From Sunxiuqinia elliptica (GTDB lineage Bacteria; Bacteroidota; Bacteroidia; Bacteroidales; Prolixibacteraceae), in contig NZ_FONW01000012.1 in the NCBI RefSeq assembly GCF_900113005.1, positions 1 through 64,000 on the forward strand: a stretch of 64,000 nucleotides of DNA, written 5' to 3'. Below the pieces are notes generated by a model that ran no database searches, had not been told where the DNA came from, and saw nothing but the letters and a program-made list of their open reading frames with translations. Below are positions 2,875 through 30,538 of this stretch, one piece after another (position 1 is the stretch's first letter; each line of letters opens with the position of its first letter). The translations under genes and the position numbers were made by a program.

Positions 2875-3100
2875 GGACGCGTTTAAACTGCCGATGGATG
2901 CCTCAAACTGGGACCAGACAGCTTTAAATTGCCGACGGACGCATTTAAACTGCCAAAGGTCGGGGCAAATAAGCCAACGGAGACAATTAAACTGCCAAAG
3001 AACTCACTTAATTTGCCAAAGGACGGGTCCGAAAGGCCAACGAACGATATTAAATTGACAACGGACGCGTTTAAACTGCCGACGGACGACACAAACTGAG
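2875..3100. repeat. Degenerate tandem repeat, 21-bp period
   Basis: Units start at 2875, 2896, 2917, 2937, 2958, 2979, 3000, 3021, 3042, 3063 and 3084. The period is 21 bp except for one 20-bp step. A typical unit is GGACGC-TTTAAACTGCC. The minus strand reads heptads such as SVGSLNA, TFGSLNA and SFGKLSE. The open frames here arise from the period and I do not call a gene. The tract mirrors the one at 690-920 in period and in its V-G heptad pattern, but on the opposite strand. Confidence 0.8.
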
Positions 3101-26533: not shown

Positions 26534-26575
26534 TATTTTTGTTTAGGATGTTACCTTTTTCAAAAATGATGTTAC
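26534..26575 (+). promoter_or_regulatory. Promoter and direct-repeat operator of the nikR-lar operon
   Basis: TATTTTTG (26534-26541) is an exact -7 box, so transcription starts near 26548. Two identical GATGTTAC copies lie at 26547-26554 and 26568-26575, exactly 21 bp (two helical turns) apart, covering the start and the ribosome-binding region of the NikR-like gene. This is a plausible autoregulatory operator. Canonical NikR sites are inverted repeats, so a direct repeat would be unusual. Confidence 0.5.
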
Positions 26576-26576
26576 T

Positions 26577-26978
26577 ATGGCTGTTTCCCGGTTTGGAGTT
26601 TCACTAGAGAAAGAATTATTGGATGCACTTGATCAATATGTCGAAGAAAATCATTTTGCCAACCGTTCTCAAGCAATTCGACAACTGATAAACCGCAATA
26701 TTGCAGAGAAAAAGTGGCAATGTGACAATACAGTTGCCGGTTCTATAACCTTGGTTTATGCTACTTCTCGCCACGACATTCAGAATCAAATCAGCGATTT
26801 TCTTCAAACTTATACGACTGAAGTTTTATCCTCTCAACGCTTCCTGCTAAATGATTCTCAAACCATGGAGATCATTGCAATCAAAGGGATTGCTCACCGC
26901 CTAACCGAACTGGCTGACAGGCTAATCACAATTAAGGGGATGCAGCATGGCAAACTAAGCATGAGCCGGGCAGACTAG
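26577..26978 (+). CDS. NikR-like ribbon-helix-helix regulator lacking canonical nickel ligands
   Basis: The 133-residue protein has a ribbon-helix-helix domain (residues 1-45; RFGVSLEKELLDALDQYV, NRSQAIRQLI) and an ACT-like C-terminal domain (about 52-133; the ITIKGMQHGKLSM tail is typical NikR). Aligned to E. coli NikR, the four nickel ligands His76, His87, His89 and Cys95 correspond to Gln77, Arg88, Leu90 and Thr96. The high-affinity site therefore appears to be absent. It is the first gene of an operon for the nickel-pincer cofactor and a nickel-type permease, so it probably still controls that pathway, perhaps with another ligand. Confidence 0.85.
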   Translation: MAVSRFGVSLEKELLDALDQYVEENHFANRSQAIRQLINRNIAEKKWQCDNTVAGSITLVYATSRHDIQNQISDFLQTYTTEVLSSQRFLLNDSQTMEIIAIKGIAHRLTELADRLITIKGMQHGKLSMSRAD

Positions 26979-27015: not shown

Positions 27016-27855
27016 ATGCAAACACTTTCGGATCATTTAAAACATAAACTACACCAGCTCGAAGACTGGTTTTCAACACGCAAAGGCTCCATCGTTGCTT
27101 TTTCCGGAGGAATTGACTCAACCTTGGTCCTTTTTCTAGCTCGAAAATTTCAAGGAAAGGAATGTGCAATCGGTGTCATTTCCAATTCGGAAAGCTTAAA
27201 AGCCAAGGATTTTGAATTAGCCCAGTCATTTTGCCGCGATTTTGATATTCAACTCGAGGTGATAAAAACACAAGAACTGACTGACCTGCGTTATAACCAA
27301 AACCCCGAAAACCGCTGTTATTTCTGTAAAGAACACCTGTTTCACGATTTACGAGAGATTCAGCAAAAATACCCGGATTTTGATGTTTTAAGTGGAACCA
27401 ACCACGATGATCTGGGAGACTATCGTCCCGGCTTGCAAGCGGCTAGTAAGTTCAGTGTAAAAGCGCCCATGGCCGATTGCCAACTGACCAAGGATGAGCT
27501 TCGACAAATCGCCAAACACTTTGAACTCCCCAACTGGGACAAGCCTGCAAGCCCTTGTCTAAGCTCACGAATTCCTTACAATCAGCCAATCACCCATCAG
27601 AAGCTGCAACAAGTAGAAGCCGCTGAAAACCTACTGAATGAACTTGGATTCAGAGACGTTCGAGTTAGGCACTACGGAAGCTACGGACAGGTGGAGGTGC
27701 AAAAACAGGAGCTGGACAAGCTGCTGGCCATCGAGGATCAGGTGATCGCGCAAATCCGTTCGCTGGGTTTTCAAGAAGTTCGCATCGACCGGGAAGGCTT
27801 GGTTTCCGGCAAATTAAACCGTGCCTTAAAAGGCTTAAACCAAACAAAAGCATAA
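27016..27855 (+). CDS. larE: ATP-dependent sacrificial sulfur transferase
   Basis: LarE puts sulfur into the nickel-pincer nucleotide cofactor of lactate racemase. The 279-residue PP-loop protein has SGGIDST at residues 30-36 for adenylation. Three cysteines stand at Cys101 and Cys104 (NRCYFCKEH) and Cys181 (KPASPCLSSRIP). The last matches the position of the sacrificial Cys of single-Cys LarE. The three-Cys pattern fits the variant reported to hold a [4Fe-4S] cluster that passes on sulfide instead of destroying itself. It lies 37 bp after nikR and 3 bp before larC. Confidence 0.93.
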   Translation: MQTLSDHLKHKLHQLEDWFSTRKGSIVAFSGGIDSTLVLFLARKFQGKECAIGVISNSESLKAKDFELAQSFCRDFDIQLEVIKTQELTDLRYNQNPENRCYFCKEHLFHDLREIQQKYPDFDVLSGTNHDDLGDYRPGLQAASKFSVKAPMADCQLTKDELRQIAKHFELPNWDKPASPCLSSRIPYNQPITHQKLQQVEAAENLLNELGFRDVRVRHYGSYGQVEVQKQELDKLLAIEDQVIAQIRSLGFQEVRIDREGLVSGKLNRALKGLNQTKA

Positions 27856-27858
27856 ACC

Positions 27859-29034
27859 ATGAAGATCTTGTACTATGACTGCTTCGCCGGAATTAGCGGC
27901 GATATGAACCTCGGTGCTCTTATCGACCTTGGTGTTGACGCCGAATACTTAAAAAATGAATTATCGAAATTGAATATAGATGGTTTCCGGCTCGAAGTAA
28001 ATACCGATCAGCGAAGAGGCATTACCGGAACCAAAGCTGAAGTTATCATTGAAAACCAGGAAAACGAGAAACATCGCCACCTGCGTCATGTTGAAGAAAT
28101 TGTGAATAACAGCAGCTTGCCAGAACAAGTGAAGCGTAATGCACTTAAAATTTTTGATTTGGTTGCTGAGGCAGAAGCCAAAGTGCACAACATTTCGAAA
28201 CAACAAGTTCATTTTCATGAGGTCGGAGCTCTTGACTCCATTGCCGACATAGTGGGTGCTGCCATTTGTCTAAATTACCTAAAAGTGGACAAGGTGATGG
28301 CCAGCTCCATCCAACTCGGTGGAGGAACAGTTAAATGTGCGCATGGAATCATGCCCGTGCCTGCTCCGGCAACTGCGGAGATTGTCAAAAATATTCCTGT
28401 AAAAACCGGCTTAGTGAATCATGAAGCTACAACTCCTACCGGAGCGGCGATCCTGGTTGCTACTGTTGACGAGTTCACTGACTCAATCAGCTTTCCGATT
28501 CAGAAGACCGCCTATGGAATCGGCCAACGCGACCATGAGGTTCCGAACGTTCTTCGGGTTTACCTGCTCGAAACAGCAAATGAAACCGCTGATGTATCAA
28601 CGGAGACTGCCAGCTTGCTCGAAGCCAATATCGACGATATGAATCCCGAGCACTACGACTATTTGCTGGAGCAGCTTTTAAAAGCGGGGGCTTCCGATGC
28701 GTGGCTCACCCCTATCATCATGAAAAAATCGCGCCCGGCAGTTCAGCTTTCAGTGCTGTCTCCTGTCAAGTTAGTATCCCAACTGAAACAGCTCATTTTT
28801 ACCCATAGCACTTCCATTGGACTCCGGGAATATTCCGTGCAAAAGAGCATGCTCCGAAGAGAAGAACGAACAGTACAAACAACCTTAGGCCCCGTTCGTG
28901 TTAAGCAAAGTTTTTTTAACGGACAGCGGGTACGATGGAAAGCCGAAGCTGAAGATTGTCGCCAATTAGCCAGCCAACACAAACTTAGTTTACAAGCTAT
29001 TGAAGAGGAAATCAGCAAACAACTGGAGTTATGA
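27859..29034 (+). CDS. larC: Nickel insertion protein (nickel-pincer cofactor synthesis)
   Basis: LarC is a CTP-dependent cyclometallase that inserts nickel into the pincer nucleotide. The 391-residue protein is one continuous frame, unlike species where larC1 and larC2 are joined by frameshifting. N-terminal YDCFAGISGDMNLGALIDLG and the conserved HFHEVGALDSIADIVGAAI are family marks. A His-containing stretch (NEKHRHLRHVEEI, about 72-84) may bind metal. The stop overlaps the larB start (ATGA). Confidence 0.95.
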   Translation: MKILYYDCFAGISGDMNLGALIDLGVDAEYLKNELSKLNIDGFRLEVNTDQRRGITGTKAEVIIENQENEKHRHLRHVEEIVNNSSLPEQVKRNALKIFDLVAEAEAKVHNISKQQVHFHEVGALDSIADIVGAAICLNYLKVDKVMASSIQLGGGTVKCAHGIMPVPAPATAEIVKNIPVKTGLVNHEATTPTGAAILVATVDEFTDSISFPIQKTAYGIGQRDHEVPNVLRVYLLETANETADVSTETASLLEANIDDMNPEHYDYLLEQLLKAGASDAWLTPIIMKKSRPAVQLSVLSPVKLVSQLKQLIFTHSTSIGLREYSVQKSMLRREERTVQTTLGPVRVKQSFFNGQRVRWKAEAEDCRQLASQHKLSLQAIEEEISKQLEL

Positions 29035-29771
29035 GTCCCAAAGAACTGTTAGAAAAGTATAAGAATGGTGAAATCAGCTTAACCGAAGCGCTGGAGAAAT
29101 TCCCTGACCGTGGCATTGAGGAAATGGGTTTTGCGACAATTGACACCGATCGACTCTCCCGCACGGGACTTCCCGAAGTAATTTACGCTTCCGGGAAAAC
29201 GGTAGAGCAAGTCAAACAGATTGCTTTACGCATGGTTGAAAAAGGGATTGACCTGTTGGCAACACGGGCAACTCCTGCCATGTTCGAGGCGATTCAGGAA
29301 GTTGTTCCCGATGCGCATTACAACGAATTAGCCCAAACCATCACTTACAAACACCATGAGACGGAGGTACCAGCAACTTACATTGCTGTTGTTGCCGCAG
29401 GAACTTCGGATCTGCCTGTTGCTGAAGAAGCGGTGGAAACAGCCCAGTTTTTGGGAAACCGGGTTGAAAAAATCTACGATGTGGGAGTAGCCGGAATTCA
29501 TCGACTATTTCACCGACTTGATGTCATCCGCCGAGCGCGTGTCATTATTGTTGTTGCAGGCATGGAGGGTGCTCTCGCCAGTGTTGTTGGGGGCTTGGTT
29601 GACAAGCCGGTGATTGGAGTTCCAACAAGCATTGGCTACGGTGCTAATTTTGAAGGGCTATCGGCTCTTCTTTCGATGCTAAATAGTTGCGCAAGTGGCG
29701 TAAGTGTCGTCAATATTGACAACGGTTTTGGAGCTGCCTGCCAGGCCTCCCTCATTAACAAACTGACCTAA
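29031..29771 (+). CDS. larB: Nickel-pincer cofactor biosynthesis protein (NaAD carboxylase/hydrolase)
   Basis: LarB carboxylates the pyridinium ring of nicotinic acid adenine dinucleotide and cleaves its phosphoanhydride, the first step of pincer cofactor synthesis. The 246-residue protein has an N-terminal helical part and a C-terminal PurE-like carboxylase domain (about 120-246; VVAAGTSDLPVAEEA, VVAGMEGALASVVGGLVDKPVIGVPTS split across that domain). It overlaps larC by four bases. LarA itself is not in the window. Confidence 0.95.
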   Translation: MSPKELLEKYKNGEISLTEALEKFPDRGIEEMGFATIDTDRLSRTGLPEVIYASGKTVEQVKQIALRMVEKGIDLLATRATPAMFEAIQEVVPDAHYNELAQTITYKHHETEVPATYIAVVAAGTSDLPVAEEAVETAQFLGNRVEKIYDVGVAGIHRLFHRLDVIRRARVIIVVAGMEGALASVVGGLVDKPVIGVPTSIGYGANFEGLSALLSMLNSCASGVSVVNIDNGFGAACQASLINKLT

Positions 29772-29842: not shown

Positions 29843-30538
29843 ATGCAAGAGCTTTATCTATTGTCATTATCAGCCGCTTCGCTCGGCTTCATCCATACCA
29901 TTCTTGGCCCCGATCACTACCTGCCCTTCATCGTATTGAGTAAAGCCCGCCAGTGGTCGAGCAACAAAACCATGTGGATTACCTTCATCTCCGGAATTGG
30001 ACATGTGGGCAGTTCAGTCCTGATTGGGTTCATTGGCATTGCCTTAGGCATTAGCCTCAATAAGCTGGAATACATCGAAGCTTTCCGGGGTGAAATTGTT
30101 GGCTGGTTGCTATTTGCCTTCGGTGTTGGCTACACCCTTTACGGTCTATACCGCTATACCAAAAGCATTCCCCACTCCCATCTGCCTGCTTTTCTCGTTC
30201 CCAAAAAAGTACGCGAGCTTCAACATCTCCCCCTGGACGAACAAGAGGATAACACCAAGCTAACACCCTGGCTGCTGTTCTTGATTTTTGTGTTTGGCCC
30301 CTGCGAAGTGCTTATCCCCATGCTCATCTTTCCGGCCTACGAACACAGCACCTGGGGTATGCTTACCGTGGCTCTCATTTTTGGACTGGCAACCATCGGG
30401 ACCATGTTGCTAACTGTTTACTTAGGCCATAAAGGAAGTCGCTTCGTACGATTTAAAAAGCACGAACGTTATGTCCATCTTTTAGCCGGACTGATTATTC
30501 TGATCAGCGGAGCCGGAATTGTTTTTATGGGATGGTAA
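29843..30538 (+). CDS. UreH/NicO-type membrane permease, probable nickel transporter
   Basis: This 231-residue protein has about six transmembrane helices. The first helix carries SLGFIHTILGPDHYLPF, the H...GPDH motif of UreH-type permeases related to the NiCoT/NicO nickel carriers. A polar loop with HSHLP (about 112-116) separates the two halves, and the second half has FVFGPCEVLIPML. The gene follows larB by 72 bp on the same strand, so nickel supply to LarC is the likely job. Metal specificity is inferred from motif and context. Confidence 0.75.
   Translation: MQELYLLSLSAASLGFIHTILGPDHYLPFIVLSKARQWSSNKTMWITFISGIGHVGSSVLIGFIGIALGISLNKLEYIEAFRGEIVGWLLFAFGVGYTLYGLYRYTKSIPHSHLPAFLVPKKVRELQHLPLDEQEDNTKLTPWLLFLIFVFGPCEVLIPMLIFPAYEHSTWGMLTVALIFGLATIGTMLLTVYLGHKGSRFVRFKKHERYVHLLAGLIILISGAGIVFMGW

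Follow-up and report, generated by a model that had tools for sequence, protein, structure and literature searches.

Why does a protein with the scaffold of the nickel repressor NikR, in which all four nickel ligands are replaced, stand at the head of an operon for the synthesis of a nickel cofactor? Ni-NikR represses when nickel is plentiful. The question is raised by a gene of Sunxiuqinia elliptica, which lies in a window of 64,000 nucleotides (contig NZ_FONW01000012.1, positions 1 to 64,000); all coordinates refer to this window unless another locus is named. These are the features discussed below:

26534-26541, + strand: TATTTTTG, Bacteroidota-type -7 promoter element just 5' of the operator (read from the sequence)
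26548-26575, + strand: putative NikR-type operator ATGTTAC-N14-ATGTTAC (pattern search; same architecture in relatives)
26577-26978, + strand: NikR-like regulator without nickel ligands, 133 residues (Pfam RHH_1 and NikR_C; structure model and fold search)
26715-26717, + strand: codon of Trp47, which aligns with Trp54 of H. pylori NikR (alignment)
26805-26807, + strand: codon of Gln77 at the position of E. coli His76 (alignment)
26838-26840, + strand: codon of Arg88 at the position of E. coli His87; Arg in 77% (weighted) of the lar-linked proteins (alignment)
26844-26846, + strand: codon of Leu90 at the position of E. coli His89 (alignment)
26862-26864, + strand: codon of Thr96 at the position of E. 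coli Cys95 (alignment)
27016-27855, + strand: larE, sulfur transferase of nickel-pincer cofactor synthesis (TIGR00268, 286 bits, cut-off 150)
27859-29034, + strand: larC, nickel insertion (PF01969, 495 bits; TIGR00299, NF052512)
29031-29771, + strand: larB, carboxylation/hydrolysis step of nickel-pincer cofactor synthesis (NF033503, 301 bits, cut-off 175)
29843-30538, + strand: membrane permease (DsbD_2), presumed nickel permease (PF13386, 39.8 bits, cut-off 24.9)

A NikR scaffold without the nickel site

The open reading frame at 26577-26978 (+) begins with ATG and codes for 133 residues. The ribbon-helix-helix domain and the C-terminal NikR_C domain, which together define NikR, are both present; the Pfam scores are 29.5 bits for RHH_1 (cut-off 20.5) and 63.1 bits for NikR_C (cut-off 22), the latter match being the only one in the 5.09 Mb genome. 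The NCBIfam model NF003381, 'nickel-responsive transcriptional regulator NikR', gave 110.1 bits (cut-off 105). The closest solved relative by sequence is NikR of Pyrococcus horikoshii (2bj1, E 4e-25). An AlphaFold model based on a 71-row alignment has a mean pLDDT of 90.3; a fold search with this model returned NikR chains for all 50 matches listed, and the C-terminal domain of the E. coli protein (1q5y_B) superposes on it at 1.2 Å.

According to passages of a published study (PMC7055735), the nickel ligands of E. coli NikR are His76, His87, His89 and Cys95. The preliminary description of this DNA had stated that these four residues are replaced by Gln, Arg, Leu and Thr. This is borne out by the alignment to P. 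horikoshii NikR, which is free of gaps in the metal site: the corresponding residues are Gln77, Arg88, Leu90 and Thr96, and the high-affinity square-planar site of NikR (His76', His87, His89, Cys95) is absent. The E. coli numbering was transferred via the P. horikoshii alignment and the E. coli sequence, and is consistent with the ends of the 1q5v match. A chance alignment or a shifted register was ruled out, as the metal site contains no gap and close relatives form a graded series. Neighbours of the nickel site are affected as well: nickel-type proteins show strong conservation of His63, His64 and His93, whereas other residues stand at these positions in most ligand-less rows and in the S. 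elliptica protein (Thr63, Ser64, Asp93). It is quite improbable that the protein still responds to nickel by means of a non-canonical or low-affinity site. All neighbours in the operon are nickel-related, and E. coli NikR possesses low-affinity metal sites besides the high-affinity one, as passages of PMC7055735 state, but in S. elliptica the four ligands are replaced together with His63, His64 and His93, and an operon for a nickel cofactor would hardly benefit from being repressed by nickel.

The protein shares with the NikR proteins of E. coli, H. pylori and P. horikoshii the domains, the fold, the DNA-contact strand, the relay tryptophan and half-sites 21 bp apart. It differs from them in having none of the four nickel ligands and in its position beside and before genes of nickel-cofactor synthesis, not of nickel import alone. 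Judged from its sequence, it should be named NikR-like and not nickel-responsive NikR, since the scaffold is present and the defining nickel site is missing. The case is a warning that the family model NF003381 labels a ligand-less protein as nickel-responsive on score alone.

The operator and the link to the lar genes

Behind the regulator follow, on the same strand, larE (27016), larC (27859), larB (29031) and the permease gene (29843), with intergenic gaps of 37, 3, -4 and 71 bp. The earlier assignment of the regulator to the head of a nickel-pincer operon with a permease was correct with respect to the genes, whereas their order is E-C-B and not E-B-C. The permease had no match in the NCBIfam search; homologues of it are also encoded directly 3' of nickel-type NikR genes (e.g. 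L075, L077, L089, L097, L114). A possible link to nickel import is the presumed nickel permease, encoded by the last gene of the operon; many other ligand-less relatives head a TonB receptor gene.

The sole LarA-like match of the S. elliptica genome (G000:C6:37347; L129, L378) is located on a contig other than that of lar; by reading of its neighbours, a putative sugar kinase gene precedes and a putative GFO/IDH/MocA oxidoreductase gene follows. No NikR box was found before this gene, and the 19.5 kb stretch has three one-mismatch matches elsewhere. Among 30 LarA loci of other genomes, a box match (≤1 mismatch) occurred at L398 only. LarA-like genes were present in 34 of 35 genomes tested, including genomes without LarC such as G268. 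In two relatives, larC is split over two overlapping frames (G219:C4:245932-247163, in L048; G016:C402:3103-4217), with a stop inside the matched stretch of one piece in G219; the larC gene of L. plantarum is reportedly frameshifted, which is similar.

The half-sites of the predicted operator are 21 bp apart, and its end is 1 bp before the start codon of the regulator. The octamer TATTTTTG at 26534-26541 fits TAnnTTTG, which we take to be the -7 consensus of Bacteroidota. As it lies directly before the operator, the box would cover the transcription start, and repression would be the natural reading. For delta-proteobacteria, passages of PMC545781 give the NikR box as GTGTTAC-[N13/14]-GTAACAC, everted in some sites; the predicted operator of S. 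elliptica likewise consists of two half-sites about 21 bp apart. Here, and in many relatives, the half-sites have the same direction, and each is near its own mirror image (GTRNYAC). Over the whole 5.09 Mb genome, the pattern RTGTTAC-N14-RTGTTAC matches exactly once (26548-26575) and twice more with one mismatch, in a search that covered one half-site orientation; because a reversed-pattern control gave 9 matches at ≤1 mismatch, only the exact match is informative. At ≤1 mismatch, 34 of 35 upstream regions of lar-linked NikR genes show this architecture (29 exact), compared with 8.7% (0.28% exact) of 1800 dinucleotide shuffles. A TAnnTT[TCG][GC] element precedes the box by at most 22 bp or abuts it in 31 of the 34 lar-linked relatives with a box.

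Relatives were taken from a sample of the order (393 genomes, 94 with a NikR match), from family f8 (28 genomes, 22 with a match) and from the own family of S. elliptica, f1 (100 genomes, 74 with a match). For the alignment, 183 proteins longer than 110 residues were used, shorter or broken ones being left out; 74 contain the set His-His-His-Cys, and the 109 that lack it include two with His-His-His-Thr. With the wider query set, 36 of the 183 are encoded beside lar genes (35 with the S. elliptica lar proteins as queries). All 36 lack the ligand set, none of the 74 proteins with the set is found beside lar, and the remaining 73 of the 109 proteins with an incomplete set adjoin no lar gene; as some loci have short flanks, the linkage counts are lower bounds. 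Among the best 80 of 311 relatives from named records, the 32 encoded beside lar all lack the ligand set, the 19 that contain it are never beside lar, and 29 show neither; many of these records stem from the genomes of the order and family samples and are not independent. In a phylum sample of 395 genomes, 72 had a match, 70 of them outside the order; the 28 loci examined outside the order all encode His-His-His-Cys, and none is within about 1.5 kb of lar.

The nickel-type NikR proteins of the same order are at most 62% identical to the S. elliptica protein. They resemble it in the box class, which is present upstream of 54 of 73 genes and absent in 19, and in some cases in an adjoining gene for a permease of the same family; often they are next to TonB receptor, FecCD-type ABC, CbiMQ or FmdE genes. 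In contrast to the S. elliptica protein, they keep His-His-His-Cys, are never beside lar (0/74) and have no box before unlinked lar genes (0/22).

The last number results from a comparison of genomes in which the lar genes are distant from NikR or NikR is lacking. Of 65 such genomes with LarC, 55 were taken (left out: G016, G143, G212, G225, G238, G243, G260, G379, G392, G510), and 50 of the 55 had enough upstream DNA; a box with ≤1 mismatch was counted if it lay no more than about 250 bp upstream of the first lar gene. Where NikR is ligand-less, 8 of 10 genomes have such a box (4 exact; none in G495 and G430); it is absent from all 22 genomes with a nickel-type protein and from all 18 without a NikR match, and it arises in 0.9% of shuffles. 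The NikR classes were assigned by hand, and some of the genomes without NikR are incomplete. All ten ligand-less genomes belong to f1, and since the order of the lar genes often differs outside f1 (often larC first), the fair contrast is the one within this family, with 19 genomes: 8/10 versus 0/9 without NikR (Fisher 7e-4, which overstates because the rows are related). The single f1 genome with a nickel-type protein, G467, has no box (0/1). Judged from neighbourhoods and predicted boxes, it is the ligand-less form, not the nickel form, that goes with lar control, whether the genes are neighbours or not. Both the genomic link and the operator link to larB, larC and larE recur across genomes, as is characteristic of a regulator of the lar pathway.

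With respect to descent, a careful tree (93 rows) and a quick tree (147/183 rows, SH-aLRT only, ligand columns removed) were computed, both from few columns and with many open forks. In the careful tree, the S. elliptica protein forms the lar-linked clade A with L032, L033, L034 and L036 (support 99/91); a second lar-linked set (L039, L048, L051; 100/97) stands apart from it. The quick tree has a third set (L211, L215, L218, L224) among mostly TonB-linked ligand-less proteins; in this tree the ligand label needs 5 changes, at least 3 of which are forced by well-supported forks, and lar linkage needs 10. More than one loss of the nickel ligands is favoured by these trees, their number being uncertain due to the many open forks, and three separate gains of lar are our reading of the tree drawings.

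Some ligand-less proteins are no longer beside lar. At L379 (= L279, L265), a larC remnant of 24 residues (2953-3024; 71% identical, E 9e-8) follows a ligand-less NikR; the lar operon is gone, regulator and box remain, and the remnant indicates that the operon was probably lost there. A link of this regulator to the KDPG aldolase and sugar kinase genes (L279/L379) was dropped, as the remnant lies between them. Four ligand-less clade-A proteins are no longer beside lar and also have no box (L196/L300, L200/L301, L260/L284, L191/L292); of their genomes, G417, G436 and G434 have no LarC match and G495 has one.

The former metal site and the possible signal

Arg5, Gly7 and Ser9 are conserved to 92-100% in all three groups (nickel-type, lar-linked and other ligand-less proteins) and align with Arg3, Thr5 and Thr7, which we take to be DNA-contact residues of E. 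coli NikR. The NikR-like protein very probably still binds the same kind of DNA operator as NikR, as far as these residues can tell. One could cite the fast change at parts of the metal site as a sign that this NikR is decaying and accompanies lar without a function, but this reading is hardly credible: the protein has full length, DNA-contact and core residues of ligand-less proteins are at least as conserved as in the nickel type (albeit over a narrower range of taxa), the operator is kept in many genomes, and the box precedes unlinked lar genes only where a ligand-less NikR exists.

In passages of PMC9860126, Trp54 of H. pylori NikR is described as relaying the nickel signal to DNA binding and as being needed for nickel coupling, not for DNA binding of the apo form. 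The aligned Trp47 is a tryptophan in 168 of 168 ligand-less rows (some genomes entered twice), in 98% of 40 sister nickel-type rows and in 88% of 81 other nickel-type rows. As far as those passages go, the conservation of a residue needed only for coupling speaks for a switch that is kept. The argument is weakened by the lysine partners of Trp54, for which there is no clear match (Lys140 aligns with Met129, Lys64 lies by a gap), and Trp47 may alternatively be conserved for packing only.

The former metal site offers a different picture. The preliminary description had envisaged ligand loss as the property of a clade, possibly with a new conserved ligand set. The loss is indeed common to clades and goes with lar (36/36 cis-linked proteins without the set; trans box 8/10), but a new set of metal ligands was not found among the 36 lar-linked proteins, which have 19 different strings at the four positions. 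No His, Cys, Asp or Glu occurs there in 18 of the 36 and no His or Cys in 23; the others contain a single His or Cys. The idea that another metal is sensed, at the old site or a second one, draws on relatives: some lar-controlling proteins keep one His or Cys (e.g. ERIH, ERMC), some trans-controlling ones keep two (ALHC, AIHC), and ligand-less rows hardly vary at Cys49 (100%) and His124 (95%). We regard it as unlikely, and specifically so at the old site of the S. elliptica protein, since the 19 strings share no metal set; this protein has Gln, Arg, Leu and Thr there, and 23/36 lar-linked proteins are without His or Cys. Cys49 is found already in 92% of sister nickel-type rows and is thus not a replacement, and Gln32 and Gln36 occupy, via the P. 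horikoshii alignment, the positions of Glu30 and Asp34, presumably the potassium-site residues of E. coli NikR. Cys49, Thr110 and Lys126 were also rejected as new sensor residues, as they occur in 92-95% of the sister nickel-type rows, a set picked by hand.

The four columns do not vary alike. Columns 77, 88, 90 and 96 have the variability ranks 6, 66, 14 and 2 of 133 in the lar-linked set and 1, 8, 17 and 30 of 133 in ligand-less proteins not beside lar. When 49 pairs of close ligand-less proteins were compared, differences were seen in 19 pairs at column 77, in 12 at column 90, in 9 at column 96 and in 6 at column 88, the mean per column being 6.4; the rate of column 77 is about three times that of the average column, and that of column 88 is about average. 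By these substitution patterns, position 88 is held, with Arg prevailing among the lar-linked proteins, and positions 77, 90 and 96 drift or diversify. Covariation of column 77 with 88, 90 and 96 ranks 50, 52 and 61 of 8515 pairs, which is suggestive only, as the measure ignores descent; with the same disregard of descent, the pairs 88-96 and 90-96 rank 730 and 929 of 8515.

This drift can also be explained by a constitutive, self-limiting repressor without effector, frozen in the DNA-binding state and holding its own gene and lar at a steady low level through negative autoregulation. The lack of a common residue set at the old site, the rate of column 77 (19/49 pairs versus a mean of 6.4) and the operator on the own start in 34/35 lar-linked cases would fit. 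This explanation is possible, though we think it doubtful: relay tryptophan and C-terminal domain are kept, column 88 changes only at about the average rate (6/49), Arg making up 77% (weighted) among the lar-linked proteins, and the cis and trans link to one pathway suggests a pathway signal.

We favour, with a probability of roughly one half, a joint reading in which the nickel site is lost, the DNA side is kept, and the protein is a lar repressor whose C-terminal switch answers to an organic signal of the pathway. By sequence criteria, it is probably a nickel-independent, self-repressing lar regulator, and it probably responds to a signal different from nickel. As a tetramer like NikR, the protein would occupy both half-sites of the operator (26548-26575), which is flanked by the -7 element and the start codon, and would, as the operator position suggests, repress its own gene together with larE, larC, larB and the permease gene; in relatives, the same kind of regulator would control lar in trans via the same box. 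Nickel would no longer be a co-repressor. The C-terminal domain would still switch DNA binding via Trp47, most likely on an organic pathway signal, candidates being the nickel-pincer nucleotide, one of its precursors and a hydroxy acid on which LarA acts. The organic signal is preferred because of Trp47 and the held position 88; that no residue set is common at the four positions would be odd if all lar-controlling proteins sensed one molecule.

Repression by nickel would shut down cofactor synthesis when nickel is present, a conflict from which the regulator has to be freed; loss of the nickel site removes it, and would explain why only ligand-less forms are found with lar. The protein seems to be a clean natural example of a metal sensor that has retained its DNA specificity after losing the metal site, and this loss coincides with a shift of the target from nickel import to the synthesis of a nickel cofactor. 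A testable rule would be that a nickel repressor must lose nickel before it controls a nickel-cofactor operon. The protein is also a candidate for the regulator of nickel-pincer synthesis in Bacteroidota; among the open-licence literature matches listed, a ligand-less NikR-like lar regulator is not described. LarR of Lactobacillus plantarum, reportedly of the Crp/Fnr type and answering to L-lactate, is likewise a dedicated lar regulator and would belong to a different protein family.

A more specific and rather speculative version is that the old nickel site now serves, in this branch of Bacteroidota, as a binding pocket for the nickel-pincer nucleotide or an anionic precursor, gained more than once along with lar control; Arg88, which occupies the position of a nickel-binding histidine, would be well suited to a phosphate or carboxylate group. 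We know of no regulator that senses a nickel cofactor rather than nickel. If true, the pocket would make such proteins sensors of the cofactor.

Other observations concern relatives away from lar. In L171 and L172, NikR proteins with His-His-His-Thr, in which the cysteine alone is replaced, precede TonB receptor genes. A second ligand-less clade has a nearly fixed Gln-Gln-Tyr-Cys and His98 (L044, L045, L046, L049, L050, L052, L059, L066, L069, with their kin L041, L056, L062, L065, L078 and the named loci L311 and L344). In this clade, no NikR box precedes the genes (0/14), and 13 of 14 stand before a TonB receptor gene, the exception being L078; none was found by L344 either. Finally, genes for nucleoside-hydrolase-like proteins, for which we know of no role in nickel uptake, follow NikR (mostly of the nickel type) and TonB genes at L084:2653-4086, L035:1054-1944 and nine further loci; the protein of L084 is fused to an FmdE domain.
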